The notes beneath the pieces were generated by a model. The model did no database searches and was not told the origin of the DNA. It was given only the letters and a program-made list of their open reading frames with translations. Made by a program: the position numbers and the translations under genes. From Halobacteriovorax sp. (GTDB taxonomy: Bacteria > Bdellovibrionota > Bacteriovoracia > Bacteriovoracales > Bacteriovoracaceae), in NCBI GenBank assembly GCA_020048985.1, contig JAIFLR010000044.1, positions 1-45,252 on the forward strand: a stretch of 45,252 bases of DNA, given 5' to 3'. Shown here one piece after another: positions 19,935 through 39,119 of this stretch. How positions within the stretch are numbered: position 1 is the stretch's first letter; every line of letters begins with the position of its first letter.

Positions 19935-19998
19935 GTTGGATCTCCTATGGTAAAGGATACCTACTTTTTGACCATTACCACAAGCTTGATTGAAAAAA

Positions 19999-23029: not shown

Positions 23030-23716
23030 ATGAAACTGTTTCTTTTATGCCTCTCTTTCTTTATTTCTAATCTCGCCATGGCGGATGATCTTCTGATGGA
23101 GATTGATAAGTATCGCAACCCAAGTGACGCCTATTCCATGAATGTTCGAATTGTTTCAACCACTGAAAAAGAAGAATCAAGTTTTCTGGTTTATTTAAAG
23201 GGGAGTGACAAGACTCTCATTAAGGTCTTAGGTCCTAAAAAAACTCTTGGGCGCAATATGCTGATGATTGGTGAGAATATGTGGGTTTATATTCCCAACA
23301 TTCGCCGCTCAGTAAGAGTCTCATTAAGTCAGAAGCTCACTGGTGAAGCAGCGAATGGAGATATTTCTCGAATGAGATGGGCCGGGGATTACACGCATAA
23401 GATAGAGAAAAAAGATGCTAAACAGTGGCAGCTCTCACTTGAAGCAACCAAGAAAGGCCTTACCTATTCAAAAATCAATGTCTGGATTGACGCCAAGGAT
23501 AAGCGTCCGCTAAAAGCTGAATTTCTGACACTTTCTGGTAAGACCATAAAGACCGCCACTTACGAGAAATATGAAAAAGTTTTGGGCATGATGAGACCAT
23601 CACAAATTCACATTGTAGATAATCTGAAAAAGGATCAATACTCTGATATCTATATTGAGAAAATGGAGAATAAAAACTTTCCAGATTCACTCTTTACCGA
23701 AAAAAGTCTCGAATGA
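23030..23716 (+). CDS. LolA-like outer-membrane lipoprotein-sorting protein
   Basis: A 228-residue periplasmic protein with a signal peptide (MKLFLLCLSFFISNLAMA, cut before DDLL). The body matches the LolA-like sorting family, with LGPKKTLGRNMLMIGENMW, then YIPNIRRSVRVS, SRMRWAGDY and a KINVWIDAKDKRPLKAEF strand. Such proteins carry hydrophobic cargo across the periplasm in a half-barrel. Encoded just after a LolD/LolE-like pair and just before a beta-barrel, it likely receives cargo from that exporter. It is not the canonical housekeeping LolA by sequence, so a specialised lipid or lipoprotein is probable. Confidence 0.8.
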   Translation: MKLFLLCLSFFISNLAMADDLLMEIDKYRNPSDAYSMNVRIVSTTEKEESSFLVYLKGSDKTLIKVLGPKKTLGRNMLMIGENMWVYIPNIRRSVRVSLSQKLTGEAANGDISRMRWAGDYTHKIEKKDAKQWQLSLEATKKGLTYSKINVWIDAKDKRPLKAEFLTLSGKTIKTATYEKYEKVLGMMRPSQIHIVDNLKKDQYSDIYIEKMENKNFPDSLFTEKSLE

Positions 23717-24879
23717 TTTTCATTCTCCTCCTTCTACCGCTTCTTTCATGGTCTCAGGATTTTTCTCAGAAGAATTTTACTGTGGGCGCACGTAGCAGCT
23801 ATTTTTTGAACGCTGATGACTGGGACAATACTTTTCTTTATTATAATCCCGAATACACTGACGAAACATTTGGTGATTCTGTTGGTATTCGCAGGAAGTT
23901 CAAGTTAAGAGTTTTTGACTACGTTTCAAGCAATGAAAAAGTCATCATAGACCCGCTTGATGTTTCCATGGAGTTTTTTACAAACCAGAATAGTTTTCAA
24001 ATTGGATTCCTGCGCTATCAGTTTTCTGAAACCTTCGGACTTCAACTTCTAGATGTGGCAAATCCTCGAGATTACTCTGAATTTATTTTTAATGACCTGG
24101 CCTGGTCTAAGCGCTCTGTTTTTGGTTTAAATGATACCTATAAATGGAATGATTTTCAGATGCAATTTATACTCACGCTTTGGCCCAATGGGGACAGACT
24201 TCCCTATGCCGGTTCGGCTTTTGATCCGACGGGTGGGCAGATTGATTATGAAGGTGGGGTTGTGAACAGGCCTTGGTTCAAGGATCTGGAATATGGCACA
24301 CGCTTAAAGTACCTGTTTCAAAATGGACTGGATTTAAGTTTTCTTTACTACCATCATTTTAGCCGACCAACATTTCAGGATTTTAAAATCGTTGATAGTA
24401 CTCATATCAAAGCTGAACCCACCTCCGAGCTGGTGGATTCACTTGGAACCTCGGGAAGCTATGTCTTTGAAGAATGGGTCTTAAGGGCCGATGTTCTTTA
24501 TACCTTTGATGATCTCGTCCAAAAGAGCCTCATCGCTTACAAAAGACAAAACCATTTCCAGGCATTAAGTGGGGTTGATCGAAATTTTGAGAAATTTATC
24601 CTGGGGGTACAGAGTCAGAGTGATTTTACCGAAAGACGTCATTTCTTTGGACTAAGAAGTGAATACACCTACCTTGGTTGGTGGAAGCCTTCAGTTATGT
24701 TTTTTAAGAATCTTCAAAGAGATGATCAATGGTTTCAAGTAAAAAACACCTTTCTCAAAGACCAATGGGGTCTCTCCATCACTTACGACAATATCCATGG
24801 CGGCACATCCGAAAGTGACCTCTTTGGATTTTATCGCAACCAGGATCGATTATTAGTTGATACGAGTTTTACTTATTAA
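23713..24879 (+). CDS. Probable outer-membrane beta-barrel of the Lol-like operon
   Basis: A 388-residue protein with a short signal peptide (MIFILLLLPLLSWSQ) and a body rich in aromatic, alternating strands (FKLRVFDYVSS, LKYLFQNGLDLSFLYYHHF, WGLSITYDNIHGG) ending in SFTY, an outer-membrane barrel end. No named family was recognised; proteins in this operon position are often described as porin-like or DUF1302-like. The start overlaps the LolA-like stop (ATGA), so it is the terminal gene of the exporter operon and is plausibly the outer-membrane acceptor. It touches the convergent BtaA-like gene with a 4-base overlap. Confidence 0.65.
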   Translation: MIFILLLLPLLSWSQDFSQKNFTVGARSSYFLNADDWDNTFLYYNPEYTDETFGDSVGIRRKFKLRVFDYVSSNEKVIIDPLDVSMEFFTNQNSFQIGFLRYQFSETFGLQLLDVANPRDYSEFIFNDLAWSKRSVFGLNDTYKWNDFQMQFILTLWPNGDRLPYAGSAFDPTGGQIDYEGGVVNRPWFKDLEYGTRLKYLFQNGLDLSFLYYHHFSRPTFQDFKIVDSTHIKAEPTSELVDSLGTSGSYVFEEWVLRADVLYTFDDLVQKSLIAYKRQNHFQALSGVDRNFEKFILGVQSQSDFTERRHFFGLRSEYTYLGWWKPSVMFFKNLQRDDQWFQVKNTFLKDQWGLSITYDNIHGGTSESDLFGFYRNQDRLLVDTSFTY

Positions 24880-25958
24880 AGCTTCTCCAAAACACTAAAT
24901 TCATACATTCGTGTGCAATCTTCCTTGGCCAGTTTGAGATTGATCTCTTTATCGGTGACCCATGGGGATGAAATAACAAATGAAGGTTTCCTCATAAACG
25001 TTCTAATCACCATTTTAGTTTTGCTAAGGATCGAAGGGGGGAGAGAACTAAGGAAATTCGAAACCTCAGCATCACTCATGTAGGAGAAGGTATCTGAAAG
25101 TGAGTAGAAATCATGGGGAGTCTCTTTAAGCAGCTCCAGAAGGTTCTTTTGGTGAAAATGGATCTGGGTTGATGAACTTTTAATTTTATTAAAGAGCTCC
25201 TCGTCACATTCGGCCGGAAAGGCTTCCTTGAATTTTACTTTATTTAAAAAGATTAGCTGCAGAAAATAATTTCCTTTTACCCACGTGTTTTGAAAAAGAT
25301 CGTTGAATTCCTGCGAAACGTATTCAGCCGCTGACAATTGCATGGTTTTATTGTTCTTACTCCCGGCAAAGGAGCCTTTGTAGAGGAGTTTATTGGCGAC
25401 ATATTCATTCATCACGATTTTACAATAGAGATCAAATAGTTTTGGGCTCCATTTAGTTTTAGAAAGCTTTTTTTGCTCTTGAATGTCTTTAGTCTCAAAA
25501 TAGGGGGTGAGTTTACTCCAAGTGAGTTTTTGGAACAGTTTCCCTAACTTCATGAAGTGAGATTCCCAGCGACCAAGATAAATAAATCCCCTTGGACCCC
25601 AGTCTTTTTCAAATTGCTGCCAAAAGGCTCGATCTTCAATTGAGAGTTCAAGCTTTTTCATCAGCTCAATCCGCTTGCTGTTACCATTAGTGTCGAGGTA
25701 GCCAAGAAAGAAGAGGTAGTCATTATAGCTACACTTTTTAATCGCCTCATGTCGAAGCCTGAAGAGTTTTAACTGTGCCTCGGATAAATCGACAATATGT
25801 AAGTGTTTCGGATTTTTGGCCAAAAGAGGAATAACCCGGCTTCCTGATCCGCATACTGCAAAAAAAGAATTCGCGTTCTCTGGTGCTAGTCGGTATTCAA
25901 CCCACGTGTCTTCGTTCGCAAGTGAGTAGTTGAGACCGTGGAAGTATTTTTCACTCAT
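24876..25958 (-). CDS. BtaA-like 3-amino-3-carboxypropyl transferase (DUF3419)
   Basis: A 360-residue protein of the DUF3419 family, whose studied member BtaA moves the 3-amino-3-carboxypropyl group of SAM onto diacylglycerol to start betaine lipid (DGTS) synthesis. Visible marks are the SAM loop AVCGSGSRVIPLL (34-46), the following acidic strand IVDLSEAQLKLF (55-66), and SLSDTFSYMSD (286-296), equivalent to the conserved late motif of the family. Distances suit a single Rossmann fold with an inserted helical part. No BtaB-type N-methyltransferase is nearby, so the amine would stay free or be modified by another enzyme. It is the last gene of a ten-gene array and overlaps the GNAT-like gene by eight bases. 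Confidence 0.8.
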   Translation of the reverse strand: MSEKYFHGLNYSLANEDTWVEYRLAPENANSFFAVCGSGSRVIPLLAKNPKHLHIVDLSEAQLKLFRLRHEAIKKCSYNDYLFFLGYLDTNGNSKRIELMKKLELSIEDRAFWQQFEKDWGPRGFIYLGRWESHFMKLGKLFQKLTWSKLTPYFETKDIQEQKKLSKTKWSPKLFDLYCKIVMNEYVANKLLYKGSFAGSKNNKTMQLSAAEYVSQEFNDLFQNTWVKGNYFLQLIFLNKVKFKEAFPAECDEELFNKIKSSSTQIHFHQKNLLELLKETPHDFYSLSDTFSYMSDAEVSNFLSSLPPSILSKTKMVIRTFMRKPSFVISSPWVTDKEINLKLAKEDCTRMYEFSVLEKL

Positions 25959-27027
25959 GGGGAATCGCCTTTTTTACTAAAATATATTCATGAGACCAGG
26001 ACAACAACATCCACTTCTGGCTATTCTTTGCAATCGTTTCACTGGCAAGTCCAGTCCTGACCATGGCGGAGATGGTTCCTTTTTTATTCAGCTGCCATGA
26101 TTTCTGGGCCGCACTGTAGATCATTCCCGAAGAGAGCTTTAATCCCTGAAACTTTTTTCTTAATGCAATGGATTTGATGACGAGATAATCCCCGTCATAA
26201 AACGCAAAGAGAAACCCGGCAGTTTCACCATTGGGATCAACCAGAACACACGAAGGGGAGAAATCATATAGAGTCACGGCACTAGCATAGAGATTAGTGA
26301 AAGTATTCAAGTCAATCGGCTCAAAAAGAAGAGCGTCACTAAAGGCGTCATGACTAATCTCATGGAAAACGGGTAACTCTTTTTTTGTAAAATTATCCAT
26401 ATCAAAAGGTCTTAACGTAAAGCCCTGATCCTGAATGCGCTTAAATGATTTTTTGAGATGGCCGGCCCCTATGCAATAGTCTCCAATCCTAAAATGCGGG
26501 AATACCACTGAATTAAAAAAAGCATAGTCTGCGAAGCCGATATCTTTGAATAATTGAAGATACTCCGGAGGAGTCGTGGCTTCCCATTTAAAGCGGGGAA
26601 AAAACTTTTTTCCTGGTAGGGAGAATCGGTAACTGAACCACGTGTTAATATCTACCGGGGCAATGACTTCACTGATGTTTTGCGACTTAAACCAACTGAA
26701 GATTTCCTTCATGGAATAAATGAAGGCATCTTTCGCATGTGGGTTTTTGAGATCAATTTCAAAAAAGCCAATGGTTCCGTGTCCTAACAGGGTTTGGCAG
26801 GGTCTGGCACTAAAGCGCAGAAGGGCTTCCTCGGTTTGAGGATCTCTTACCAACCAAAATGTTGCTTTCTCCTGCTTACCCCAATGAATGAGTCGGGTGG
26901 TTTGCTCAGGCTTCATTAAGTCTTTGGCAAATTCGGGAGCTCTTACCTTCAAGGGTAAAGAAGTAAATGCCTCGATAAACTCGGAGTCATTTAGATCATC
27001 AAGTTGTTGTAAAACAAACTTACTCAT
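25951..27027 (-). CDS. Tandem GNAT-like acyltransferase
   Basis: A 358-residue protein with two GNAT-like halves. The C-terminal half (about 200-350) has the acyl-CoA binding motif in SIALRKKFQGLKLSS and the preceding beta-bulge strand TAGFLFAFYDGDYLVIKS. The N-terminal half is more degenerate, as in many double-GNAT or FemAB-like proteins. No signal peptide is present. It would transfer an acyl group to an amine, but the acceptor is unknown. The 4-base overlap with the upstream dikinase and 8-base overlap with the BtaA-like gene make it part of the same pathway. N-acylation of the homoserine-type amine made by the BtaA-like enzyme is an attractive guess. Confidence 0.7.
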   Translation of the reverse strand: MSKFVLQQLDDLNDSEFIEAFTSLPLKVRAPEFAKDLMKPEQTTRLIHWGKQEKATFWLVRDPQTEEALLRFSARPCQTLLGHGTIGFFEIDLKNPHAKDAFIYSMKEIFSWFKSQNISEVIAPVDINTWFSYRFSLPGKKFFPRFKWEATTPPEYLQLFKDIGFADYAFFNSVVFPHFRIGDYCIGAGHLKKSFKRIQDQGFTLRPFDMDNFTKKELPVFHEISHDAFSDALLFEPIDLNTFTNLYASAVTLYDFSPSCVLVDPNGETAGFLFAFYDGDYLVIKSIALRKKFQGLKLSSGMIYSAAQKSWQLNKKGTISAMVRTGLASETIAKNSQKWMLLSWSHEYILVKKAIPHE

Positions 27028-29747
27028 TCGTCTTCCAGTATTCGGATCTCACCTTTTGAAGCATCCATCCTGACTCTCATTCCGGTCTTAAGTTTTTTCA
27101 TTAGTCCTCCAGTCACTCCGACGATGGTTGGAATTCCCAACTCTCTTGCGACGACCGCGGAGTGAGACAGGAGGCTTCCTCTTTCAATCAGGAGCCCTGA
27201 AGTTGAAGGAAACAGTGGAACCCAGCCAGGATCAGTCCGCTCAGAGACCATGATTTCGCCATTAAGGCCTTCAGCGTCTTTGGCTTCTCTTACCACTCGA
27301 ACTATTCCTTCTACGATTCCAGGAGAGCAAGGAGTTCCAATGAGCACATTGGGATCATCGGAGACTGGTTCTTCTCCGATCAGAAGATCCTGTTCAGCAA
27401 TGATCTGAGGGAAATTAATATTCGCTCCTACAGCACCCTCAGTATAAAAACGATCAGGAGGCTGGGGGGTATTTCGGTACTCATCAAATTGTTTTTTTCG
27501 AGCGGCAGTCAGGTTTCTAAAATCAACTTCAAAGGATCGGCCTTCCTGGAAAGATGATATTTCATCAATACTGAGATAAAAAATATCCATCGGTTCGTCG
27601 ATGACTTTGATCTCGTAGAATTTTTGGCCCAGTGCCTTGAAGATCCTGCGGCAGATTCCAAAGACGTTAGTCCTCAGAAGTCTTAAGTCCTCCCTGTCCT
27701 TAACAGCAATTCGGGCCTGATTTAAAATAAAAAGATAAATTTTAAGTTTAGGACCACTTAGATTTTCATGGATCACTTTCAGGGCATTGGCCGAAGTTTC
27801 TTTTTCCCGCTCAATAATTTCATCTACAGATGTATTTTTCATCCTGACGAAACTGATAATCGCCTCAAGAGCAAAGGTTGGATCTTCATGCAGATCAATT
27901 GATTCGAGTTTAAGCTCATTAATGCAACGAAATCCATAAGCATCAATAAACTTATTAAAGTCCTGGAAAATCTCTGGGGATTTTCCAGATCTCAGCTCTT
28001 GTAGCACTTGCTTACTGGGGGTTGTGATAAACCACTCCCGAAAGACAGTATCTCCTCGGTCAATTTTTCTGGCAATTCTCATTAAAATTCTGGTGGGCTC
28101 CGTACTCGGTAGATCACCTTGGCCACTTAAGAGATCATTATAAAGAGAAGCGGAGTTATCTTTTTTAACCCATTTCTCTGTGAGGGACTTCAAGACCCCA
28201 AAGAAAAGCATACAGCGCGTATCACTGATAATGGGTGCCTTCCATTTAAAGAGCAGATCTTCGTTGAGCTGGTCATAGGCGGCAATGAGTTCTTGGATGT
28301 TTTTTGCTTTATAATCCTGTCTTTTTGCAATGGAATACACTCGCTCGAAATCTGCTTTAAATTGCGCCACTGATTTGCGCACATTGAATATGCGCCACAA
28401 ATTTCTAAAGAGGATGTAGATATTTCGAAAAAATGAATAGGGAGGTGGGTTTTTAGTAAAATCAAATAAGGCCGCTAGCTCAGGTCTGAGGTTTTGTTTT
28501 ACTCCCATCATGGTTTCCATGAAACCCTTAGAAGTGCCTGCAAAAGGAAATAGGAAAATCATTTTGTACCAGTTTCCTAAGTTGTAATAAACTCTTCCTC
28601 GAATAAGCCCTAACATATTCCTGAAAGTGATTTCATTGGCCTTGATGACATCAGCAGGGACCCCCATGACCTCGCAGTACTGCAGATACACTTGTCGGTA
28701 GGCCTTGGAAACGTGACTAAAAGTAAGGGGAGTTGTGACCCCATTATAGGATTCCGTGATATTTGAATTATCCCAAAGAATAAACTCTGCACCTTTGACA
28801 GATTTTTTATAAAATCCTTCTGGCGGAAGATTTGTTATGGGTCTGGTCTGAACACAAAAGAACTCGCCCTTTTCAAAGGCCCACTCAATATCCTGGGGAA
28901 GCCCGAGAGTTGCTTCAAGTTTGATCATGGCCTCACTAATGGTTGCGATCTGGGCATCGGTGAGAGAGGAGACTTCTTGTTTCTCTTGAGCGACTGATTT
29001 CTTTTCGAGGCCTCCTTGGGATCCTTTTACAAAGAAGAATTCTTTTTTAACTAAATGAGGCTCAATTGCAAATGCTTGGTTTGTGTCACTTGGACGTTGA
29101 ATATAATAGTGGTCTGCATCAAGCTCACCACTGACTAGTCCCTCTCCAATGCCGTAGACGGAACTCACGATCATTTGTTCGCGTTTAAGATGATGAATAG
29201 GGTTTCGACTGAAACCAACTCCTGCGATATCAGCAAAAACCATTTTTTGGATGATGACACCCATGCCAAACTTATCTGTGCTAATACCTCGCTCTTGCCT
29301 GTAGGCGCGGGCCCTTTCGGTAAAAGCAGAAGCCCAACACATTTTGATACTTAATATTATTTGCTCGATATTGGTCTGGTGAAGATAACTTGAAAATAAT
29401 CCCGCAAATGAATTGTCCGCAGAGTCTTCGCCTATACCACTTGATCTCACGGCAAAAGTGCATCCTTCCGGGAATTTTTCAGCGATCGTCTTTTTAATGT
29501 GTTCTTCCAGGGCCGGGTCCAGAGATTGACTGAGGAATAGTTTTTCCACTTCCTGGTGTGTTAGTGCCCAAAGGTTTTGATCCTTGTATTTTTTTAAGAA
29601 ATGCTCAAAAGCAGGAGTGGCGAGACAAATCCAAGGAGGAACACTAACCCCGGTATTTTCTAGCCTTGCCATGTTTGTAGCTTTCCCTCCATCGAATTGA
29701 TCTAATTCTTCGATGGGTGTCTTTGCGTGATGGATAAACTGTTTCAT
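27024..29747 (-). CDS. PEP-synthase/rifampin-phosphotransferase-like dikinase
   Basis: A 907-residue three-part enzyme. Residues 15-310 form the PPDK-type ATP-grasp domain (GGKATNMARL with K22, TFAVRSSGIGED around R101, then DIEWAFEKGEFFCVQTRP at 286-303). Residues about 320-800 form a variable substrate domain beginning DNSNITESYNGVTTPLTFS (326-344). Residues about 810-907 form the swivelling phosphohistidine domain with RGSLLSHSAVVAREL and catalytic H862. This order (ATP domain, substrate domain, His domain) is that of rifampin phosphotransferase and related enzymes, not housekeeping PpsA. It uses ATP to phosphorylate a hydroxyl, releasing AMP and phosphate, or makes a PEP-like product. The pathway substrate is unknown. 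The start is one base after the ligase/UbiA stop. Confidence 0.82.
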   Translation of the reverse strand: MKQFIHHAKTPIEELDQFDGGKATNMARLENTGVSVPPWICLATPAFEHFLKKYKDQNLWALTHQEVEKLFLSQSLDPALEEHIKKTIAEKFPEGCTFAVRSSGIGEDSADNSFAGLFSSYLHQTNIEQIILSIKMCWASAFTERARAYRQERGISTDKFGMGVIIQKMVFADIAGVGFSRNPIHHLKREQMIVSSVYGIGEGLVSGELDADHYYIQRPSDTNQAFAIEPHLVKKEFFFVKGSQGGLEKKSVAQEKQEVSSLTDAQIATISEAMIKLEATLGLPQDIEWAFEKGEFFCVQTRPITNLPPEGFYKKSVKGAEFILWDNSNITESYNGVTTPLTFSHVSKAYRQVYLQYCEVMGVPADVIKANEITFRNMLGLIRGRVYYNLGNWYKMIFLFPFAGTSKGFMETMMGVKQNLRPELAALFDFTKNPPPYSFFRNIYILFRNLWRIFNVRKSVAQFKADFERVYSIAKRQDYKAKNIQELIAAYDQLNEDLLFKWKAPIISDTRCMLFFGVLKSLTEKWVKKDNSASLYNDLLSGQGDLPSTEPTRILMRIARKIDRGDTVFREWFITTPSKQVLQELRSGKSPEIFQDFNKFIDAYGFRCINELKLESIDLHEDPTFALEAIISFVRMKNTSVDEIIEREKETSANALKVIHENLSGPKLKIYLFILNQARIAVKDREDLRLLRTNVFGICRRIFKALGQKFYEIKVIDEPMDIFYLSIDEISSFQEGRSFEVDFRNLTAARKKQFDEYRNTPQPPDRFYTEGAVGANINFPQIIAEQDLLIGEEPVSDDPNVLIGTPCSPGIVEGIVRVVREAKDAEGLNGEIMVSERTDPGWVPLFPSTSGLLIERGSLLSHSAVVARELGIPTIVGVTGGLMKKLKTGMRVRMDASKGEIRILEDE

Positions 29748-29748
29748 A

Positions 29749-32031
29749 TTATGACCTCGTCCTTATTAGCCACATAATAGCGGGGGCAACAACTACAATT
29801 AGACCGGACAGTGTGGCCACTCCCTCAATCTTTTTAAACCCCTCAGGATTTTTTATCCATTTGAGCAGCATGAATTCAAGGGCAATGAGGGGGAGAATCA
29901 TCCATACACCAAATCCTGCCATGAAGGATCCCGCCGCCATCATGCAGATAAAGAGGGTGCAGATGAAAACTGTTGGCGCAGGACCATAGTGCTGAGCATA
30001 GGTCTGGGCAAGTTTGTGCGCTTGGGGATTGAGTTTTCTGCAAATTTCAAAAGTAAAGGAGCCTCCGAAATTTGCGAGCAGCCATCCCTGAAAAGCGCGG
30101 TCAGTAATTAAACTGCTGTCAGTAGAAAGAGCGACCCAGCCATAAATGAGAAAAACAATCACTTGATGAGTAATGGCATAAACGATGGGCTCTTTATTCA
30201 GAACCTCACCGACGAAAAATTCTTTATACATGAGCCAAGCAAAAACCGACGCCATACTGAGAGTGAATCCACCTGGCCATGATTTTAACAGTCCCAAAAC
30301 TATCCCTGCCAAAACAACAAAAATAAGGATCTTGTTCATGGCAGAGGCCAGATCTGTTGTTGTCAGAAGACCTCGTGGCAGGGGGCGCGTGGGATTGACT
30401 ATTTTATCTTTTTCAAAATCTTTGACCTCATCCCCCAGTCGCAGTTGAATGAAGATGAGCGTATTGAAGAGTATGGCGGCTAAAAAAAGTGCAGGATCGA
30501 ATTCGCTTTTAAAGGAAAGGGAGGAGAGTGCTCCAAGGGTCGAAATAAAAAACAAGGCAGGAAGAGGTGACCTCTCTTGAAGATACGTCTGCCAATTTTT
30601 CAGATTACTCATTTTTTCTGTCCTGTATTTTCGTGGTAAACTTTTAATTCTATCTATTCTTGAACGGTGGCGGCGATCTCTTTGTATTTCTGTTGATGCA
30701 ATGACATCAATTTGTGGAAACTGTTTTTTGAGGGATTCACTTCTTCCTGTCAGTCCTTGACCGACAAGTACGACTTTTTGATCTTTGTTCCGGTGGATAA
30801 AGGATTTTGAGGATCCGAGAAATGAATAAACCCTCTGCTCTAAAGCGAAATCCTCACTTCTCTGCGACTGACGTCCGGCATACCAAAAGTGGCCATCTTT
30901 TTCATGGATTTTGTCACCCATGCAGTGCCACAGAGTTCCACCCTCATCACGCTCTTTAACTCCGAGATTTTGTGACGGATCCCCGATATACTCACCGGAT
31001 ACATTAGGACCACTGACCCATAAAACATCTGCCTTAAATTTATAGCGAATTTCCTTAATGGGTTTTCCAAGACAGAGAGTTTGAAAGTAACCTTGGGCGC
31101 GACTTTGTTTGAGTGCCTCCTTGGCCTCCATATAGGCCACGGGCTCGGCTTCACTTCCACCATAGAGATGTAGCACCCGCGCCTCAGGTAACTCTGTGAT
31201 GACTTTTTCCATGAGCCAGCAATCCGTCAGAGCACCACCGAATACGATGCGCTTGAGAGATTTTACTTCTCCCATCATATTTTCATCCATCAGCTTTTTA
31301 AAAAATGCGGGACCTGTAGAAATAGTCTGAAAGCCAAAAGGCCGGGCAATTTCAAAAAGCTTTTGCAAGTTTTTGCGACTCCAGCGATTAGGAATAATGA
31401 TGGAGCCTCTCCCTGTTGCCAGATGAAACAGTGCTAGATTAGGGAAGATGCACAGGTCAGGAGTTGCGAAATCTTCGGGTTCACTAGAAATAAATATATC
31501 TACAACGGTTTTAAGGTAATCATGAGTGCGCACAACACCTTTGGGGTTACCAGTGGTTCCACTGGAGAAAACCACAAAAGCATGGTGCTCAGGAGGTAAG
31601 TTTTCAACCTTAAATGTTCCTGACAAAGCAGTAGTTTCAAAATCCTTGGAAGAAAACCACAGAGGAATATTTCTTATTTCCCTTGATCGTATTCCCCAAG
31701 CTTTCCCTATGGTGCCTGTAATAAATGCTTTTGGCCTGGCGGCTTTAATGACTTCGTTGATTCGATCCACTTTAAGCCAGGGCTCAATGAAAACGATGCG
31801 AACTCCCATACCAAGAAGACCACAAATTATTCCATATAGGGCCGGGCATGGAGCAATCATGAGAAGTACTGAATCACCCGTTTTAATTTCATGTTGATTC
31901 AATTTTTTTTGAACTTTTACGCTGAGACTTAAAATCTCCTGAAATGTCCATGATCCCCAACGGATATCCGTCACCGCCATTTTCTCTGGGTGAAGTTTTG
32001 CTTTGACCTGAAAGAGTTCTATAGCGTTCAA
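29749..32031 (-). CDS. Acyl-AMP ligase fused to a UbiA-family prenyltransferase
   Basis: A 760-residue fusion. Residues 1-470 are a class I adenylate-forming ligase: P-loop FSSGTTGNPKGVV (155-167), LYGGSEAEP (289-297), MGD (371-373), YAGRQSQR (384-391), ending with RDRRHRSRIDRIKSL (451-465), which resembles the end of OleC-type and beta-lactone ligases. Residues 475-760 are a multi-pass UbiA-type domain. Its first acidic motif is GDEVKDFEKDK (533-543; D534, D538, D542; the usual leading Asn is Gly), followed by RPLPRG. A second site is FEICRKLNPQAHK (661-673), unlike the classical second DxxD. The TTG start overlaps the P450 stop (TTGA) with AGAAGG upstream. A natural start-like MSNLKNW at 474 marks the fusion point. 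Confidence 0.82.
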   Translation of the reverse strand: MNAIELFQVKAKLHPEKMAVTDIRWGSWTFQEILSLSVKVQKKLNQHEIKTGDSVLLMIAPCPALYGIICGLLGMGVRIVFIEPWLKVDRINEVIKAARPKAFITGTIGKAWGIRSREIRNIPLWFSSKDFETTALSGTFKVENLPPEHHAFVVFSSGTTGNPKGVVRTHDYLKTVVDIFISSEPEDFATPDLCIFPNLALFHLATGRGSIIIPNRWSRKNLQKLFEIARPFGFQTISTGPAFFKKLMDENMMGEVKSLKRIVFGGALTDCWLMEKVITELPEARVLHLYGGSEAEPVAYMEAKEALKQSRAQGYFQTLCLGKPIKEIRYKFKADVLWVSGPNVSGEYIGDPSQNLGVKERDEGGTLWHCMGDKIHEKDGHFWYAGRQSQRSEDFALEQRVYSFLGSSKSFIHRNKDQKVVLVGQGLTGRSESLKKQFPQIDVIASTEIQRDRRHRSRIDRIKSLPRKYRTEKMSNLKNWQTYLQERSPLPALFFISTLGALSSLSFKSEFDPALFLAAILFNTLIFIQLRLGDEVKDFEKDKIVNPTRPLPRGLLTTTDLASAMNKILIFVVLAGIVLGLLKSWPGGFTLSMASVFAWLMYKEFFVGEVLNKEPIVYAITHQVIVFLIYGWVALSTDSSLITDRAFQGWLLANFGGSFTFEICRKLNPQAHKLAQTYAQHYGPAPTVFICTLFICMMAAGSFMAGFGVWMILPLIALEFMLLKWIKNPEGFKKIEGVATLSGLIVVVAPAIMWLIRTRS

Positions 32032-33419
32032 GCTTTGACCTTCTTAATGTTTACCATACAACCTTCTTTAGGTTGCAGGGTCAAACTCATTAGATAGGTG
32101 GGGTCTTTCTCAAAAGCCTTCTCGATATCGAACTTTTTAATCATCATACTCAGGATGGTTAGCGCCTCCACCATCGCCAAATTCATCCCAATGCAAATCC
32201 TTGGGCCTGCTCCAAAAGGGATGTAGGCAAACTTCTCATGGTCTTCTCCATTTTCGAGGAAGCGCTCTGGTTTGAATGCCTCAGGTAGCTGCCAGTACTT
32301 GTGAGATCTCTGGATGGTGTAGAGGGAAACAATGACGTTCGTAATCTCGGGAATATCATACTGTTGAATTTTAGTTTGAATTTTATTTTTGCGAGAGACC
32401 CGCCAAAAGGGAGGGTAAAGCCTGATAGCTTCTTCAAAAACGGCTTTGGTATAAACTAGCTTTTCCAGTTCCTCATAGGTAGGGGATTCACCTGAGAGGA
32501 CTTGATGAACTTCTTGTTTTACTTTCTCATAAATTTCCGGATTTTTCAGAAGTTCATGCCAGGTCCAAGTCAGCGCGTTGGCAGTACTTTCATGGCCAGC
32601 GAGTAAAATATTTAACACTTCATCACGCATTTGCTGATCACTCATCTTGGAGTCTTCATCACTTCCGCTGGTTTTGATCAACATATCAAGAAAGTTTTCG
32701 GTTAGATTTTTACTCCTGCGCTCATTAATCAAGGCAAGTACTAATTCGTTAACTTTTTGAATTGAGGCAAAAAATTTCTTGGTACTTTTCAAGGGGAGCA
32801 GTTTTTCAAGTTTTATGGCAAATTTATATTTGTCTTTGATAGGGAAGGGCGCAATCAATAGTTGCAGCCAAAGGTGCCTCGATGATTGAAGGTAGGCGAG
32901 AATATCTTGTAAGGCTTGCCTTAATACGAGTGAATCATTTTCTTGCCTCTTGCCCAGAAGGCCGACACTGATAATTTCCAAAGTCATGAGATTCATCTCT
33001 TTGGCCAGATCAATCTTCTCGTTCGGTTTCCATTTATTGAGAATGGCATTCGTTTCTTTCACCATGATGGGTTGAAGTCTTTCAACTTGTTTGCTTGAAA
33101 AGCTCCCTGCCATTAGGCGGCGCTGCTTTTTCCAGACCTCTCCCTCACTAACCAGAAGTCCATTGCCAAAGATTACCCGGAAGCGGTCATAGGAGGTGGA
33201 CTTGCTATAGTTTTGAGAATCGGTTTGAAGAACTTGCTCTATTGCTTTGGCATCATTCAGCATGACGAAACGAAAACTTCCCAATTTAAAAAAAACGATG
33301 TCACCGTATTTAGAAAAAATACTTTCATACAGTTTAATGGGGTTCTTTTGGCGTTGAATAATCATGCCAATCATTTCCCAGAATGATCTTGGTCCTGGCG
33401 GTAAATTATTTTCGCTCAC
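32028..33419 (-). CDS. Cytochrome P450
   Basis: A 463-residue haem mono-oxygenase without a membrane anchor. All hallmarks are present: I-helix oxygen-binding AGHEST (274-279), ExxR at E330-R333 in EEAIRLYPP, PERF (384-387), and the haem loop PFGAGPRICIG (401-411) with thiolate C409. The style (PPGP near the N-terminus, WKKQRRLM for the C-helix) is that of CYP102/CYP4-type fatty-acid hydroxylases, so a long alkyl chain is a likely substrate. The GTG start overlaps the MBL stop (GTGA), and its stop overlaps the ligase start. No ferredoxin or reductase is encoded nearby, so redox partners must come from elsewhere. Confidence 0.92.
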   Translation of the reverse strand: MSENNLPPGPRSFWEMIGMIIQRQKNPIKLYESIFSKYGDIVFFKLGSFRFVMLNDAKAIEQVLQTDSQNYSKSTSYDRFRVIFGNGLLVSEGEVWKKQRRLMAGSFSSKQVERLQPIMVKETNAILNKWKPNEKIDLAKEMNLMTLEIISVGLLGKRQENDSLVLRQALQDILAYLQSSRHLWLQLLIAPFPIKDKYKFAIKLEKLLPLKSTKKFFASIQKVNELVLALINERRSKNLTENFLDMLIKTSGSDEDSKMSDQQMRDEVLNILLAGHESTANALTWTWHELLKNPEIYEKVKQEVHQVLSGESPTYEELEKLVYTKAVFEEAIRLYPPFWRVSRKNKIQTKIQQYDIPEITNVIVSLYTIQRSHKYWQLPEAFKPERFLENGEDHEKFAYIPFGAGPRICIGMNLAMVEALTILSMMIKKFDIEKAFEKDPTYLMSLTLQPKEGCMVNIKKVKA

Positions 33420-34249
33420 TTTCTGCCCTTTTCCATTGCAAGAGCTTTTTTATAAAGTCCTTGGTCATGGGAAGAAAGAATGACGAGTTGTGGATCTTGC
33501 TGATGAATGGTTCTGATTTTTTTTAGTGTTTCCTCGGCCTCCACCGGATTGACGTGGCCTAGTTGATTATAGATTTCAACGGGTTTTGCATAAGACTTCT
33601 CTAACAATTGCGCTTCCAGAAGAAAGGCATCTCCAGTAAAAAAGATGTTTGATTCATCTTCAATCACAACTCCCGAATGCCCTCGGGTGTGTCCAGGTAG
33701 TGAGACCATATAAATGGGGTCTGTGATTCCTTTGAGGCCCTGCGCTTTTCCAAGTCCTTTCCAGCTATCTCCTTGAGTCGTATACGTCTCAAAGAAAGGA
33801 TTTGCTTCCCAGCGGATGGGTGAGTAGCGAAATTTTTCTTTTGGGTTGTGTGGATTGTGGGCCGCATCCCATTCATCTTTCAGAACATGCACTACTGCAT
33901 CGGGAAAATCAGCGATGCCACCAATGTGGTCTGAATCAAAGTGTGTCGCAATAATATGTTTGACGTCTTTGGGGTTAAAGCCTTTTTTGATTATTTGCAT
34001 AAAGGCAGTTTCTTCAACATCAAGCTTGGGTCTCGCAAGATGATTAAATACAAAATTGGATTTAAATCTTTCTTGGTTTCGAATGTCTTTGAGACCAAGA
34101 CCAGTGTCTACAAGGATGAGACCACTATTGGATTCAATTAGGAGGCAGTGACAAACGAGATTGAACTGATCCAATTTGGGAAGCAGCCTATTTAATACGG
34201 GATGCCCCAGCGCACAGAATGAGCCACAGTTAAGGTGATGAATTTTCAT
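33416..34249 (-). CDS. Metallo-beta-lactamase fold hydrolase (lactonase-like)
   Basis: A 277-residue MBL-fold protein with metal ligands in THFDSDHIGG (H103, D105, D107, H108), PGHTRGHSG (H187), TGDAF (D207) and SSHDQG near 260. The second position of the usual HxHxDH is aspartate. It resembles acyl-homoserine-lactonase-like hydrolases, but there is no luxI or luxR nearby, so a pathway ester, lactone or thioester is more likely. It follows a 69-base gap after the acyl-ACP-reductase-like gene, the largest break in the array, so a second promoter could lie there. Its stop overlaps the P450 start. Confidence 0.78.
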   Translation of the reverse strand: MKIHHLNCGSFCALGHPVLNRLLPKLDQFNLVCHCLLIESNSGLILVDTGLGLKDIRNQERFKSNFVFNHLARPKLDVEETAFMQIIKKGFNPKDVKHIIATHFDSDHIGGIADFPDAVVHVLKDEWDAAHNPHNPKEKFRYSPIRWEANPFFETYTTQGDSWKGLGKAQGLKGITDPIYMVSLPGHTRGHSGVVIEDESNIFFTGDAFLLEAQLLEKSYAKPVEIYNQLGHVNPVEAEETLKKIRTIHQQDPQLVILSSHDQGLYKKALAMEKGRK

Positions 34250-34318
34250 GCATTCTTTTCGGATAGATTACGAAATTTAGTAGAAGAATAATATCAGAGA
34301 AGGGAAGTCTGGATTGCT

Positions 34319-36352
34319 CTAGTTGGTTCTCTTTTTTAAATTTTCCAGGGCGTATTGACGGCACAGGTCGATTTCAATTTCCTTAATTTCCCCAGTGTGG
34401 CCCATGATGCTGGAGAGGCGAATACCATGTTTTCGAGATAGCCGATCAATTTGGATGATTTTCTCATATGAGAGCTCTCGAGACAGAGAAAAACTTTCCA
34501 AGAGTCCTTCCATGGTGAGAAGGGCCGTCTCGGCCAGGCAGGCATAAACGGTTTCTCCTTCCAGACCGATGGTTTTATCGATTTTCACATTTCCCGGCAG
34601 CTCAACCTCACCGCTGGCGATAATCAGGATGTCAGGTCGTTTAGCGGCGTCCTCAAGCGAGATATCAAATGGACGGCTCACATCACACACCACACACCCT
34701 GGCTTAATGAGTTCTATATCAATGACTTTCTCTCCTTGGGCAGAAGTTGAAGTTACGATTAAATCACTCTCACCTGAATACTTATTGGGGTTGGTGGTAC
34801 CAATGATTTCTGCTTCAGGAGCAAAGGCTTTAAGCAGAGAGACAAGTTCTAAAACTTTATAAGGGCGGGGAGCTACAACAACAATTTTTTTCCACTGATT
34901 TGCGAGGACCTTGGCGCATATTTTACCAATACTTCCAGTTGCTCCGATAATCATACAGGTTCCATCAAAGCGTCCGTCAACTTTATGAACCAGTCCCATT
35001 TTCTCGATTCCAAAACTTGCTGCCCATAAAGTGGCAGCAGCGGAAAGCGTATTTCCCGTCGTCACCGGTATCGGCGAGCGCTGATTTACCGTGACCCCGG
35101 CATCCCCCACGATCTTGGTGTAGGCGCCTAAACCAATGAGCATGGCACCTCTTTTATGGGCCAGAGAGCATATGTTAGAGAGCGAGTCGTAAACTTTTTC
35201 TACTGGGGTCGTGAGGAGCATTTTAGGAGTTGCCGGAATCATATAGAGGTGACCCTCGACTTCTTTTCCGTCAAACTCTGATTTTATTCCCGAAATGGTG
35301 CAGTAGTGGTGACCCGGAACTTTGGCCGCAAGATTTTCCGCTAAATCAAGCAGTGGTGATTTATTCAGGAAACTGAGTCCTGGAATTTGCGCAATTTGAT
35401 TTTTTGAAAGTGGATGGATGATAAAAGCAAAATGATCTATTTTGGATTTTGCCAGGTCATTTGTTTGGATACGTGGCTGAATCTCAAAGGTTTGCAAGTA
35501 ATCCAGGATGTCCTCTTCAGTCAGAATTCCCCTTGGATGGGTGATATGGAGAATGGCCTCGATAACTGAAGTACTGAGGTGAGGCAAATTGGCATAGGAA
35601 GGGAACAAAATTAAAATACGCTGGGCTTTTGCCTTGATGAGTTTTTCTTCGCTTTCCTGGGAGAGGCGGTCAATGATGACAGTCTTTCCTTCAAGGTTAT
35701 TGAGTTCGGTGAATTTGAGTTGAGATTCTGTAATAAAAAAAATATCAGCATCAAAAAAACTCTTCATGGCAATGGACTTTGTTTCCACTGCACTGAAGTC
35801 TCTTTTGATTTTCTTTTTAAGTCTCATTCGTGACAAAATCGGAGCGTTAATTTTTAAAAAGGTATCTAGCCCTTTCAGCCCATTTATACTGACGGGAACT
35901 CCCATGGAAAAGAACAGATCACCGAAAACTAATTTACAATCATGTTCTTGAAAGAAAGGGAGAATATTCCATTGCACCAGACCGGTGAAAAAAGCGATGG
36001 TTTTGTTGGATAGAAAATGTTTTTCCTGATCAATAAATTTTTTAAGCGCCCAGGGAAAAGCTGCTTTTCTAAGCATATTCCCATCCAGTACTGGGGTATC
36101 CCCGGCAGCTTCCCGTATCGCCTTAACCATTGTATGGACATGAGTCTTATTTTGCTGCTTGATATCCAGAATAAAGCCGGAAAGAGCGAAGGCATCACAT
36201 TCAGAAGCATATTTTTTCACGATGAGTAGAGCAAGATCAAAATCATAATCCACCCCGATGCCTCGGATATGGATCTTATGGCCATTCATTTCGATTTCTT
36301 CATCAAAGTTATCGCTGGAACTACCAAAACTTAATTTGATAATTTCTTTCAT
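34319..36352 (-). CDS. Long-chain acyl-ACP-reductase-like protein with an extra N-terminal half
   Basis: A 677-residue protein. The C-terminal part (about 305-660) aligns by eye with cyanobacterial aldehyde-forming acyl-ACP reductase: FAFIIHPLSKNQIA at its start, HKRGAMLIGLGAYTKIV, VTTGNTLSAA, the NADPH loop GATGSIG (470-476), and YACLAETALLTMEG with C605 at the position of the acyl-thioester cysteine (Cys294 in the Synechococcus enzyme). The first about 300 residues have no counterpart in the 341-residue cyanobacterial enzyme and match nothing I know; they are mixed alpha/beta and not membrane-spanning. It probably reduces a fatty acyl thioester to an aldehyde. No aldehyde deformylating oxygenase is present. 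The start overlaps the SDR stop (ATGA). Confidence 0.78.
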   Translation of the reverse strand: MKEIIKLSFGSSSDNFDEEIEMNGHKIHIRGIGVDYDFDLALLIVKKYASECDAFALSGFILDIKQQNKTHVHTMVKAIREAAGDTPVLDGNMLRKAAFPWALKKFIDQEKHFLSNKTIAFFTGLVQWNILPFFQEHDCKLVFGDLFFSMGVPVSINGLKGLDTFLKINAPILSRMRLKKKIKRDFSAVETKSIAMKSFFDADIFFITESQLKFTELNNLEGKTVIIDRLSQESEEKLIKAKAQRILILFPSYANLPHLSTSVIEAILHITHPRGILTEEDILDYLQTFEIQPRIQTNDLAKSKIDHFAFIIHPLSKNQIAQIPGLSFLNKSPLLDLAENLAAKVPGHHYCTISGIKSEFDGKEVEGHLYMIPATPKMLLTTPVEKVYDSLSNICSLAHKRGAMLIGLGAYTKIVGDAGVTVNQRSPIPVTTGNTLSAAATLWAASFGIEKMGLVHKVDGRFDGTCMIIGATGSIGKICAKVLANQWKKIVVVAPRPYKVLELVSLLKAFAPEAEIIGTTNPNKYSGESDLIVTSTSAQGEKVIDIELIKPGCVVCDVSRPFDISLEDAAKRPDILIIASGEVELPGNVKIDKTIGLEGETVYACLAETALLTMEGLLESFSLSRELSYEKIIQIDRLSRKHGIRLSSIMGHTGEIKEIEIDLCRQYALENLKKRTN

Positions 36353-37389
36353 GTCTTTGTTCGAAGATATTCTTTTATAAGAATAGGCAAATAGGTTTTA
36401 AAGTCCGGCTCAATGAGTTGGGGATAATCGGTGTTGAGATTTGTTCGGTCCAGGTGAGCTGCTTGTTCCATATAAAAAACCAATTCTTTGGGTATTCTTA
36501 GTAATCGGAAGACTGGGGAAAAGAACTTAGTTTTTGGGATACAAATTATTTCAAGTGGAAGACCTAAACACTTCATTGATTGCTCCAAAAAGTCTTTAGT
36601 CGAGATTGGCTGCTTGGGAATCAGGTGGTAAGTGCTTAGCTCTCGCTGTTTGGGATTGAGAATTATGTGAGTGCACCAGTCAACTAAGGTGTCGACCGGC
36701 ACAACTGGCATCATGGAAGCCTTTTGTACGGGAAGAGGAAGATGTTTTAATTTATCCCGCACAATGGGAAGCTTTTTGATGTTTTGAATAAAATCAAAAA
36801 AGTAGTAAGGCCCATTATCATTATCTCTCTCTCCCGTTTGGCTATTGCCAACGATAATTCCGGGACGATGAATAATGGTTTGATATTTTTTTGATACATT
36901 CTTTCGGACCAAGTTTTCAGCTAAATTTTTACTCTTTGCATAGTTGTCAAAGAAATTTGATTTTTCCTTAATGAGATCATTTTCTAAAATATTTCCCTTG
37001 AGGACTTGATTGGCGGCATAGGTGCTAAAAAAATGAAAATATTTTAAATTAGGCAGTCTTCCCAGAAATTTAAGCACATTCTGAGTGCCTATGACGTTCT
37101 TGAGGTACGCTTCTTGAAAGGAAACATCCAATTGATAAACAGCAGCGAGATGGATCACACAATCAATCTCATTCAGTACTTCTCCCGCTGAGAATAAGTT
37201 TGTGAGTAAATCTGTCTTTTCGATATCTCCACCAAGAAAAGTGATGGAGTCAAGATCGTGAAACGTTTTTTTTGCCTTCTCCAGGCTCCCTTCTCTGACC
37301 AAAAGGAATAATTTCTCGCCTCTATCACTAAGGGATCTCACCAATCTTTGCCCGATAAACCCGGTACCGCCAATAACCAGTATATTCAT
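36349..37389 (-). CDS. Extended SDR, thioester-reductase/fatty-acyl-reductase-like
   Basis: A 346-residue NAD(P)-dependent extended short-chain dehydrogenase. The nucleotide loop is GGTGFIG (7-13), the catalytic set is the FST serine (122) with YAKSK (Y150, K154), and RPGIIVGNSQTG (175-186) with the following NGPYYFF stretch is typical of thioester-reductase and male-sterility-type fatty acyl reductases. It could reduce an acyl thioester, a beta-keto acid or an aldehyde. The choice between these cannot be made from sequence. ATGA overlaps with both neighbours (DAG-kinase-like upstream, acyl-ACP-reductase-like downstream) imply stoichiometric co-production. Confidence 0.82.
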   Translation of the reverse strand: MNILVIGGTGFIGQRLVRSLSDRGEKLFLLVREGSLEKAKKTFHDLDSITFLGGDIEKTDLLTNLFSAGEVLNEIDCVIHLAAVYQLDVSFQEAYLKNVIGTQNVLKFLGRLPNLKYFHFFSTYAANQVLKGNILENDLIKEKSNFFDNYAKSKNLAENLVRKNVSKKYQTIIHRPGIIVGNSQTGERDNDNGPYYFFDFIQNIKKLPIVRDKLKHLPLPVQKASMMPVVPVDTLVDWCTHIILNPKQRELSTYHLIPKQPISTKDFLEQSMKCLGLPLEIICIPKTKFFSPVFRLLRIPKELVFYMEQAAHLDRTNLNTDYPQLIEPDFKTYLPILIKEYLRTKT

Positions 37390-38366
37390 TGGATCATATC
37401 AATTTTATCTAAAGAGTGACTTGAACATAAAAGGGATTCTCCTTTATAAGTAAACACATCCAGGGCATTTGGGACAATAGATAAATCAATCATACTTGAT
37501 TCTTGGAAAATCTCGCCGTCTCCAAAAAAACGCAAAGGTTTTCCATCTGCACTGTTCATCGTTAATGCATCTGTTTCAAAAGAAATAAGGTTCTTATCAT
37601 CAGTCGGATAACGTCCACTCATCATTTGAAGAGTGCACTTTAAAAAATCAAATCTGTTTTGGTGAAGAAAGATGGTCACATTAAATTTTCCATCATTGTT
37701 TTTAGTCTTAGGCGCTACTTGAAACTTCCCACCGATGTACTCCTGATTATTAACCAAAATCATGGGAGAAGAGACCAGGTTATTGAGAAGAGGAGAGTCC
37801 TTTGACTCAATAAATACTTTTCTTGATTCATACGGGCTTGTCAGCATCTTTTGAGCATAAACAACGGAGTATGTTTCTTTGCCTATGGTCTTCATCATCT
37901 TTTTAAACAAAACGCTGCTTTTTCTCAAATGATCCACGGTACTGGCAACTTCGCACGCCATTCCAATTCCACCGTTGGTCATCATGTACTTTCCATTCAC
38001 TTTAATGGCGTCGATTTGTTTGGTGGTTTGGGCATTAAATATTTTCGATATTTTTTTCAGGCTATTGCTCATTCCTAACTCTTGAGCAAAGTCATTCGCT
38101 GTACCTGTTGGAAGTACCATCAGTTTAGTTTTCTTACCAACCAGATTCTGAGAAATTGTATTCATCGTTCCGTCACCGCCCACGGCAAAGATATACTCTG
38201 TCCCATTTGCTACATCTGACAAAACTTTTTCATTCAGCTCGTCCAGGTTGCTCGGATTATGAATCACCATTTCATGGCGGAAAAAGAATTTTTTTAGCTC
38301 CTCTTCTGAAAAAGCAGAATGACTTTTTGAAGAGCGTGAATTTAAATAAACTGAAATCTGGGCCAT
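37386..38366 (-). CDS. Diacylglycerol/sphingosine-kinase-like lipid kinase
   Basis: A 326-residue member of the DAGK/YegS/LCB5 family that phosphorylates lipid alcohols with ATP. The nucleotide motif AVGGDGTMN (61-69) is followed by LPTGTANDFAQELG (85-98) and, later, MTNGGIGMACEV, all typical. No membrane segment is present, so it acts at the membrane surface. AAGGA lies 6 bases before the ATG and the previous gene ends 12 bases away. In this array its substrate may be the lipid alcohol or diacylglycerol used or made by the neighbouring enzymes (inference). Confidence 0.87.
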   Translation of the reverse strand: MAQISVYLNSRSSKSHSAFSEEELKKFFFRHEMVIHNPSNLDELNEKVLSDVANGTEYIFAVGGDGTMNTISQNLVGKKTKLMVLPTGTANDFAQELGMSNSLKKISKIFNAQTTKQIDAIKVNGKYMMTNGGIGMACEVASTVDHLRKSSVLFKKMMKTIGKETYSVVYAQKMLTSPYESRKVFIESKDSPLLNNLVSSPMILVNNQEYIGGKFQVAPKTKNNDGKFNVTIFLHQNRFDFLKCTLQMMSGRYPTDDKNLISFETDALTMNSADGKPLRFFGDGEIFQESSMIDLSIVPNALDVFTYKGESLLCSSHSLDKIDMIQ

Positions 38367-38378
38367 GAAAGATCCTTA

Positions 38379-39119
38379 TTAGTTTTTTAAAACATCAAGT
38401 TTTTTATTGTGAATATCTGACAACAGGTTTGGCATTTCCGCACAAATCATAGGGATTCCAGATTCCTGTATCGGCTGACTTTTGAGATCTAAACCGACGC
38501 TTCCAACGAAGCCCAAAGCCTGAATTTTCATCATGCTAAACATCAGCTTCGTGGGGTCTTTAAGACCTCTCACCGCTGCTTGGCTTTTACGTAAAGGGAC
38601 AAAATGCGCAAATCGATAGATTGATTCAATAAAGTGTCTGGTTAAACAGTAGTAGTGAGGTTGTGATTTCAATTCTACAAGGGCCTCAAGAGAAACTTTT
38701 TTTACTTCCTCCGCATCTTGCGTATTAATAGCTTGGAGGATTTTCTTTTTATGGCTTTTCCAATCAAAAAACGAAAAGGTTTCTTGTGGGATCTTTAGCT
38801 CTGGAACTGGAGTCTGGACAAGTGGAAGAAATTCTTTGCAAAATAAATCCATGCCTTTTTTCTGATATTTCACAGCTTTTAAATCATAAAAGGCCGCAGG
38901 AAGAAGAGTTAGTCGTTCATAAGTGATGAGTTCATTAAAGATGCGATTAGATTTTCCTTGAGTCAGTTTTGAATAGATTTTCTTGCGGTCTTTGTTAATG
39001 GTAATTGATTCTTTGATGTGGCCCTGAAAACAGAAGCTGGCGTGTGATTTTGCATAACCATCAGAGGAGATGGTTACGAGTAGCCCTAAACTTAATGAGA
39101 TTACGTTGAATTTCGACAT
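38379..39119 (-). CDS. Secreted protein of unknown function at the head of the lipid array
   Basis: A 246-residue protein with a signal peptide (MSKFNVISLSLGLLVTISSDGYA, cut near KSHA). The mature part is helical and basic, with four cysteines (FCFQG, LFCKE, YYCLTR, MICAE), and matches no family I know. Only 12 bases separate it from the lipid kinase gene, so it may be the first gene of the ten-gene transcript, although it could be unrelated in function. It is divergent from tgt across a 153-base gap that contains a long inverted repeat. Confidence 0.6.
   Translation of the reverse strand: MSKFNVISLSLGLLVTISSDGYAKSHASFCFQGHIKESITINKDRKKIYSKLTQGKSNRIFNELITYERLTLLPAAFYDLKAVKYQKKGMDLFCKEFLPLVQTPVPELKIPQETFSFFDWKSHKKKILQAINTQDAEEVKKVSLEALVELKSQPHYYCLTRHFIESIYRFAHFVPLRKSQAAVRGLKDPTKLMFSMMKIQALGFVGSVGLDLKSQPIQESGIPMICAEMPNLLSDIHNKKLDVLKN

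Follow-up and report, generated by a model that had tools for sequence, protein, structure and literature searches.

We propose that ten genes on the minus strand of a 45,252-nucleotide contig from Halobacteriovorax sp. (JAIFLR010000044.1; the window, meaning the whole stretch analysed), at positions 24876-39119, form together with probably four plus-strand neighbours a locus for the biosynthesis and export of an undescribed lipid-type molecule, a model that on sequence grounds we consider somewhat probable. An acyl thioester would be reduced to an aldehyde and on to an alcohol by the acyl-thioester-reductase-like protein (AAR) and the SDR, the lipid kinase would phosphorylate the hydroxyl, and the PPDK/PigC-like enzyme (the PPDK protein) would carry out another phosphorylation or activation driven by ATP. 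UbiA could then move the activated chain onto an acceptor handled by the ligase domain to which it is fused, the BtaA-like enzyme would add a 3-amino-3-carboxypropyl group from S-adenosylmethionine, and the amine of this group may be acylated by the GNAT protein or, elsewhere, formylated by a formyltransferase. The P450 and the metallo-beta-lactamase (MBL)-fold hydrolase would tailor the product, and an ABC-FtsX-LolA-outer-membrane-protein route may carry it towards the outer membrane. We hold the exact order of these steps to be doubtful. The model is drawn from the alternation of modules between loci, from the active sites of the enzymes and from the exporter; its novelty is the pathway, the enzymes all belonging to known families. 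A lipid-type product, as suggested in the preliminary description, is favoured by the AAR, SDR and lipid kinase, by the match of UbiA to 6m31, by the BtaA-like enzyme and by the LolA-type and MMPL genes; the P450 and MBL hydrolase, also counted there towards such a product, are accessory. More specifically, and tentatively, the locus may represent an undescribed class of exported alkyl aminolipids present in many phyla, made by thioester reduction, two phosphorylations, an ether or other alkyl bond formed by UbiA, and an N-acylated or N-formylated aminocarboxypropyl cap. The alcohol could come from AAR/SDR or from a repurposed HMG-CoA reductase (HMGR), and the double phosphorylation would follow a logic like that of phytol salvage.

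The ten-gene array is almost certainly a real conserved unit. The ligase-UbiA protein was searched in 290 genomes of the phylum, of which 137 match at 1e-10, many of these having, as judged by score, general AMP-ligases only; 39 regions were fetched, made up of the 29 top-scoring matches besides the window and ten others that were weaker or partial. L033 (ligase identity 59%) and L034 (53%) have all ten genes in an unchanged order, eight follow in order until the contig ends in L032 (62%), where GNAT and BtaA sit on another contig of the same genome (L197), and six follow in order on the short contig of L195. The gap between MBL and AAR is 69 bases in L034, as in the window, and 56, 43, 68 and 14 bases in L033, L032, L198 and L195, respectively. 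Remoter loci retain many of the array genes with order and strand shuffled, and the nearest named relatives by PPDK, among the matches listed, are metagenome-assembled genomes of Bacteriovoracaceae. The comparison of ligase-UbiA neighbourhoods that the preliminary description had called for therefore finds the linkage conserved, and its view of the array as one functional unit agrees with the order kept in relatives, the core kept across phyla and the co-occurrence of the genes at the genome level.

This core consists of the AMP-ligase, UbiA, the PPDK protein, the DUF3419/BtaA-like protein and GNAT. A scan of the PPDK alignment against a collection of 84,980 species confirmed at least 566 relatives, not all of which need belong to a cluster, and 79 loci were kept among the matches listed. 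By record title, and among these matches, the core is found whole or in part in about ten phyla: PPDK stands with at least one other core gene in members of Bdellovibrionota, including Bdellovibrio bacteriovorus (L129), in Bacteroidota, Planctomycetes, Gemmatimonadetes and Verrucomicrobia, and likewise in Acidobacteria, Riflebacteria, Melainabacteria, Geobacteraceae and Ectothiorhodospiraceae, labels that may be wrong here and there because most of the records are metagenome-assembled genomes. For 46 of the 79 PPDK-anchored loci 5 kb is available on both sides (duplicates from other searches left in); ligase or UbiA is present in 41 of these, ligase in 40, UbiA in 38, BtaA in 37, GNAT in 33 and formyltransferase in 7; 33 combine UbiA, ligase and BtaA with an N-acylating gene, and two (L103 and L127) contain no UbiA, ligase, BtaA or GNAT. 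Of 280 genomes searched in the phylum, 100 have PPDK, 82 AAR and 95 BtaA, and the pairs coincide in 89 (PPDK and BtaA), 78 (PPDK and AAR) and 79 (AAR and BtaA), giving Fisher tests of 2e-43 or less with kinship ignored. Twelve low-scoring paralogues were set aside to leave a cluster-type PPDK set of 88 of the 100 genomes; this choice, the cut applied to LolA and the locus subsets used throughout (107 non-redundant loci after removal of 12 duplicates, the 76 of these of at least 12 kb, and the 46 flanked loci) were all made after seeing the data.

The best clue to the reactions is the exchange of thioester-reducing, kinase and N-acylating genes for unrelated ones of like chemistry, an alternation not seen in the earlier reading. 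Clustering of unlabelled neighbours revealed a class I HMGR in 23 loci (PF00368, E 2e-116 in L126) and a kinase-like membrane protein in 24 open reading frames (ORFs) of 164 to 790 aa, with a weak CTP_transf_1 match in 3 of 11 and a signature that we take to be of phytol/dolichol-kinase type; a formyltransferase is present in 13 loci (PF00551 in L097). Across the 76 loci of at least 12 kb, no locus combines AAR (26 loci) with HMGR (21), DAGK (28) with the kinase-like gene (20), or GNAT (53) with the formyltransferase (11). As judged from gene content, the AAR, SDR and YegS kinase of the window and the HMGR with phytol/dolichol-kinase-like protein of other loci are alternate modules. A separate arrangement is seen in L046, L050, L051, L055, L056, L058 and L061, which have no AAR and carry an FtsX-type permease of about 860 aa and a DAGK-like gene of about 303 aa beside the core.

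Four genes on the opposite strand, overlooked in the preliminary description, are probably the exporter of the cluster. They encode an ABC transporter ATPase (21149-21832, PF00005), an FtsX/MacB-type permease (21829-23028, PF02687 and PF12704), a LolA-like periplasmic protein (23030-23716, PF17131) and a 388-aa protein (23713-24879) with a signal-peptide-like start and no Pfam match, which is predicted to be outer-membrane-like. All lie on the plus strand and are packed with spacings of -4, 1 and -4 bases, and the last 4 bases of the 388-aa gene lie inside the BtaA gene. The proposed role follows from the joining of these genes to the cluster in other genomes: in L064 and L065 the set is flanked by GNAT and BtaA, and in L063 it adjoins GNAT. 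The complete set of four is present in 7 of the 107 loci (the window, L042, L053, L063, L064, L065 and L113), with partial sets in more, and homologues of the 388-aa protein occur in 10 of the 107, 7 of which also have ABC, FtsX and LolA. With the LolA cut set at a gap in the scores, above 280 bits, 37 of the 67 matching genomes among the 280 are retained, 34 of which carry the cluster-type PPDK. An MMPL/RND gene present in 11 loci is perhaps an alternative exporter.

The enzymes themselves were assigned by Pfam and NCBIfam searches of the window proteins, and the family names given in the preliminary description hold, those of GNAT and UbiA leaning on relatives. The DUF3419/BtaA-like protein (24876-25958, minus strand, as are all array genes), a presumed 3-amino-3-carboxypropyl transferase, matches PF11899 at 146.6 bits, as do in family all 23 aligned relatives. 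The GNAT-type N-acyltransferase (25951-27027) is weak in the window (Acetyltransf_1, PF00583, E 0.037), and of the 24 relatives aligned with it 22 reach E 0.05 or better against this family; its possible kinship to bacterial ceramide synthase is an idea on which we found nothing in the open-access literature. In the PPDK protein (27024-29747), which resembles PigC and rifampicin phosphotransferase, only PPDK_N (PF01326) and PEP-utilizers (PF00391, residues 829-899 of 907) are matched, His862 is invariant across 22 aligned sequences, and the nearest solved relative is 5fbs (432.6 bits), named PEP synthase in the PDB and which we take to be rifampicin phosphotransferase. The AMP-ligase/UbiA fusion (29749-32031) matches PF00501 in its ligase part. 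Of 85 candidate ORFs for the ligase, 59 have a readable A10 motif, whose lysine position is occupied by Arg 36 times, by Lys 22 times and by Ala once; HMGR-type loci that can be read have Lys in 15 cases and Arg in one (L089). The UbiA half has no Pfam match and scores 41.6 bits to PRK13592 (cut-off 443), PF01040 is met by 16 of 19 separate UbiA relatives, and a relative in L126 scored 19.6 against the EboC cut-off of 250. UbiA prenyltransferases are characterised by two Asp-rich motifs, of which the first is kept in 86 of 89 sequences, and the best PDB match by sequence is 6m31, an archaeal ether-lipid synthase, at a weak E of 9e-7. A fusion of ligase with UbiA is present in 13 loci, including one from a Planctomycete (L123), against 60 loci in which the two genes are separate, and suggests that the two steps are linked.

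Acyl-thioester reductases use a catalytic Cys, and Cys605 of AAR (34319-36352) is invariant in 13 aligned sequences and aligns with the Cys of 6jzu and 4ppm. This C-terminal half is PigE-N/acyl-ACP-reductase-like, and the protein scores 53.8 of 449.7 bits, below cut-off, against the equivalog TIGR04058. As a separate observation, the first 300 or so residues of AAR have no Pfam match and no solved structure among the listed matches. The SDR (36349-37389) is of the fatty-acyl-reductase type (NAD_binding_4, PF07993, 124.9 bits), and the YegS/DAGK-type lipid kinase (37386-38366) matches DAGK_cat (PF00781) and YegS_C (PF19279). The cytochrome P450 (32028-33419, PF00067, 309.6 bits) and above all the MBL-fold hydrolase (33416-34249, Lactamase_B, PF00753) are accessory to the cluster, the latter being found in 4 of the 107 loci (the window, L032, L033 and L034). 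In all four copies of this acyl-homoserine-lactone-lactonase-like protein H-x-D-x-D-H replaces the usual H-x-H-x-D-H, so that the second metal His is Asp. The secreted protein (38379-39119) gave no Pfam or NCBIfam family match and has homologues in 12 fetched regions.

The statement that no described pathway has this gene set agrees with our searches of the open-access literature, in which none was found, and each of the known systems compared fails in a defining feature. Betaine-lipid synthesis by BtaA/BtaB shares the DUF3419 enzyme (cut-off 28.2 bits, far exceeded); its loci are expected to include the BtaB N-methyltransferase, and the ten array proteins include no such separate methyltransferase family and many extra enzymes, so that betaine-lipid synthesis as such is rejected. 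Bacterial sphingolipid synthesis needs serine palmitoyltransferase, and no aminotransferase family was matched by Pfam among the ten proteins. The ligase resembles OleC of the OleABCD pathway with scores of 100.4 bits (cut-off 850) and 94.6 bits (cut-off 900), and the OleA and OleB families (thiolase, alpha/beta hydrolase) were not found in the array. The PPDK protein has the ATP-binding and phosphohistidine domains of rifampicin phosphotransferase and of phosphoenolpyruvate (PEP) synthase and differs in its middle domain; PEP synthase carries a PEP/pyruvate barrel C-terminal to the His domain, no barrel family follows that domain here, and the score to the equivalog NF004881, 836.9 bits, is short of the cut-off of 883, so that the protein is not a PEP synthase. 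Likeness to the archaeal digeranylgeranylglyceryl phosphate synthase (6m31) is confined to the UbiA match and the first Asp motif, the second motif being different. Phytol salvage consists of phytol kinase, phytyl-phosphate kinase and UbiA; HMGR-type loci similarly combine a kinase-like gene, a phosphotransferase and UbiA, but the second kinase is unrelated, and a long-chain substrate is presumed.

The strongest of the other explanations is that the product is a diffusible secondary metabolite with a lipid tail, such as an antibiotic, pigment or signal, and that the ABC or MMPL genes are an efflux pump, which we regard as possible though unlikely. The PPDK and AAR proteins do resemble the prodiginine enzymes PigC/RedH and PigE, but the former scores 307.7 bits to PigC (cut-off 1300) and 313 to RedH (cut-off 1350), and the latter aligns with positions 2-360 of the 837 of PigE at 155.6 of 850 bits and has no aminotransferase half, so that no prodiginine-type equivalog cut-off is reached and the prodiginine/tambjamine pathway as such is rejected. 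Such a metabolite would fit the patchy, tailoring-like P450 and MBL, the patchy distribution and island-like position of the cluster within the genus, and the major facilitator superfamily (MFS) efflux gene that adjoins the Planctomycete locus L117; set against this, no polyketide synthase or nonribosomal peptide synthetase family is present in the array, and LolA-type proteins, by their presumed role, point to the outer membrane.

A pathway to isoprenoids or quinones, in which the ligase would activate an aromatic acid for prenylation by UbiA, with any HMGR present supplying mevalonate, is improbable. Membership of UbiA in its family and the many loci in which HMGR adjoins UbiA speak for such a pathway; nevertheless DXR, of the MEP pathway, is present in 13 of the 14 HMGR-cluster genomes searched (absent in G297), the second UbiA motif is replaced, and the cluster HMGRs have lost the Lys that binds the carboxylate of HMG.

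The cluster copy is the single HMGR in 11 of these 14 genomes, G292, G297 and G301 having two. Conversely, the genomes of the window, L129 and L119 have no DXR and one HMGR off-cluster, of another class by motifs, which in the window genome lies on a different contig from the array. None of the 15 cluster copies aligned departs from the catalytic Glu, Lys, Asp and His. HMGR pocket residues are named in PMC3875450, and in PMC9500038 Lys735 forms a salt bridge to the HMG carboxylate. An equivalent of this Lys is kept in none of the 23 cluster HMGRs when aligned with the human enzyme and 6hr7. From this loss in 23 of 23 and the DXR in 13 of 14 genomes, the cluster HMGR has likely been repurposed to a different acyl thioester. 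L146, on a contig titled Bacteroidetes, has next to its HMGR-type cluster both a P450 and a homologue of the secreted protein (205 bits), which would be either gene exchange or a mixed bin.

That the array is a chance row of unrelated metabolic genes on a shared transcript can practically be discounted, since for all that tight packing is common in bacteria and no known family takes in the secreted gene, the order is conserved in relatives and the core is co-localised in about ten phyla by record title.

Several observations weigh against the proposed lipid locus and its parts. At the original LolA threshold PPDK is present in just 44 of the 67 LolA genomes, and the closest relatives of the window (G210, G229 and G275) are without a close LolA, so that either export differs there or the link between exporter and cluster is looser than proposed. 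AAR is absent from 10 of the 88 cluster-type PPDK genomes, both AAR and HMGR are missing from 29 of the 76 loci and both GNAT and formyltransferase from 12, and the alternation of modules partly reflects a split between taxa. The position of the A10 lysine is Arg in the ligase of the window and its clade, making adenylation by the window-type ligase doubtful, and the second Asp motif of UbiA is replaced by E-x-x-R-K in 89 of 89 sequences. Finally, 11 of the 23 cluster HMGRs have a Lys or Arg one residue ahead of the Lys735 position, so that a loss of charge is not proven. Should the product nonetheless be an envelope lipid, a lipid class would be missing from current maps, and the labels PEP synthase and HMG-CoA reductase would mislead for many genes. 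An HMGR gene alone is no proof of a mevalonate pathway, and the alternative modules yield a testable prediction for each step.

The coordinates of the ten ORFs of the array are as first described and reproduce every overlap and gap that was reported for this putatively coupled row. BtaA and GNAT overlap by 8 bases and GNAT and PPDK by 4, a 1-base gap separates PPDK from ligase-UbiA, and 4-base overlaps join ligase to P450 and P450 to MBL; after the 69-base gap between MBL and AAR, AAR and SDR, and SDR and DAGK, again overlap by 4 bases each, and 12 bases lie between DAGK and the secreted gene. Two genes have non-ATG starts, ligase-UbiA (TTG) and P450 (GTG). Promoter-like and terminator-like sites in the window show no excess over shuffles (24 found against a mean of 29.3, and 18 against 17.7), and therefore mark no transcript ends. 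Nor does base composition mark an island, the GC fraction being 0.417 for the cluster, 0.412 for the exporter genes and 0.431 across the remaining window.

In the window the exporter and cluster separate queA (19990-21054) from tgt, which begins at 39273 and is followed, up to 43748, by a YajC-like ORF, secD and secF (tgt identified by Pfam, the others named by reading). Among 25 genomes of the genus, queA lies 28 to 1412 bases upstream of tgt in 12 tgt regions, the secreted gene adjoins tgt in 5, the window included, and neither is found within the fetched flank in 8; in G216 and G225 queA is upstream of tgt and a divergent cluster lies elsewhere. This pattern fits a gain of the cluster by insertion, as far as gene order can indicate. 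Further upstream in the window, two consecutive minus-strand ORFs of 1463 and 1464 aa (9389-13780 and 13935-18329) begin like lipoproteins. Their best local match to each other, at E 0.002, does not make them clear paralogues, and the second is without a Pfam match. Outside the genus, the Planctomycete locus L117 has a sulfotransferase-like gene and a P450, in addition to its MFS efflux gene, beside the core.

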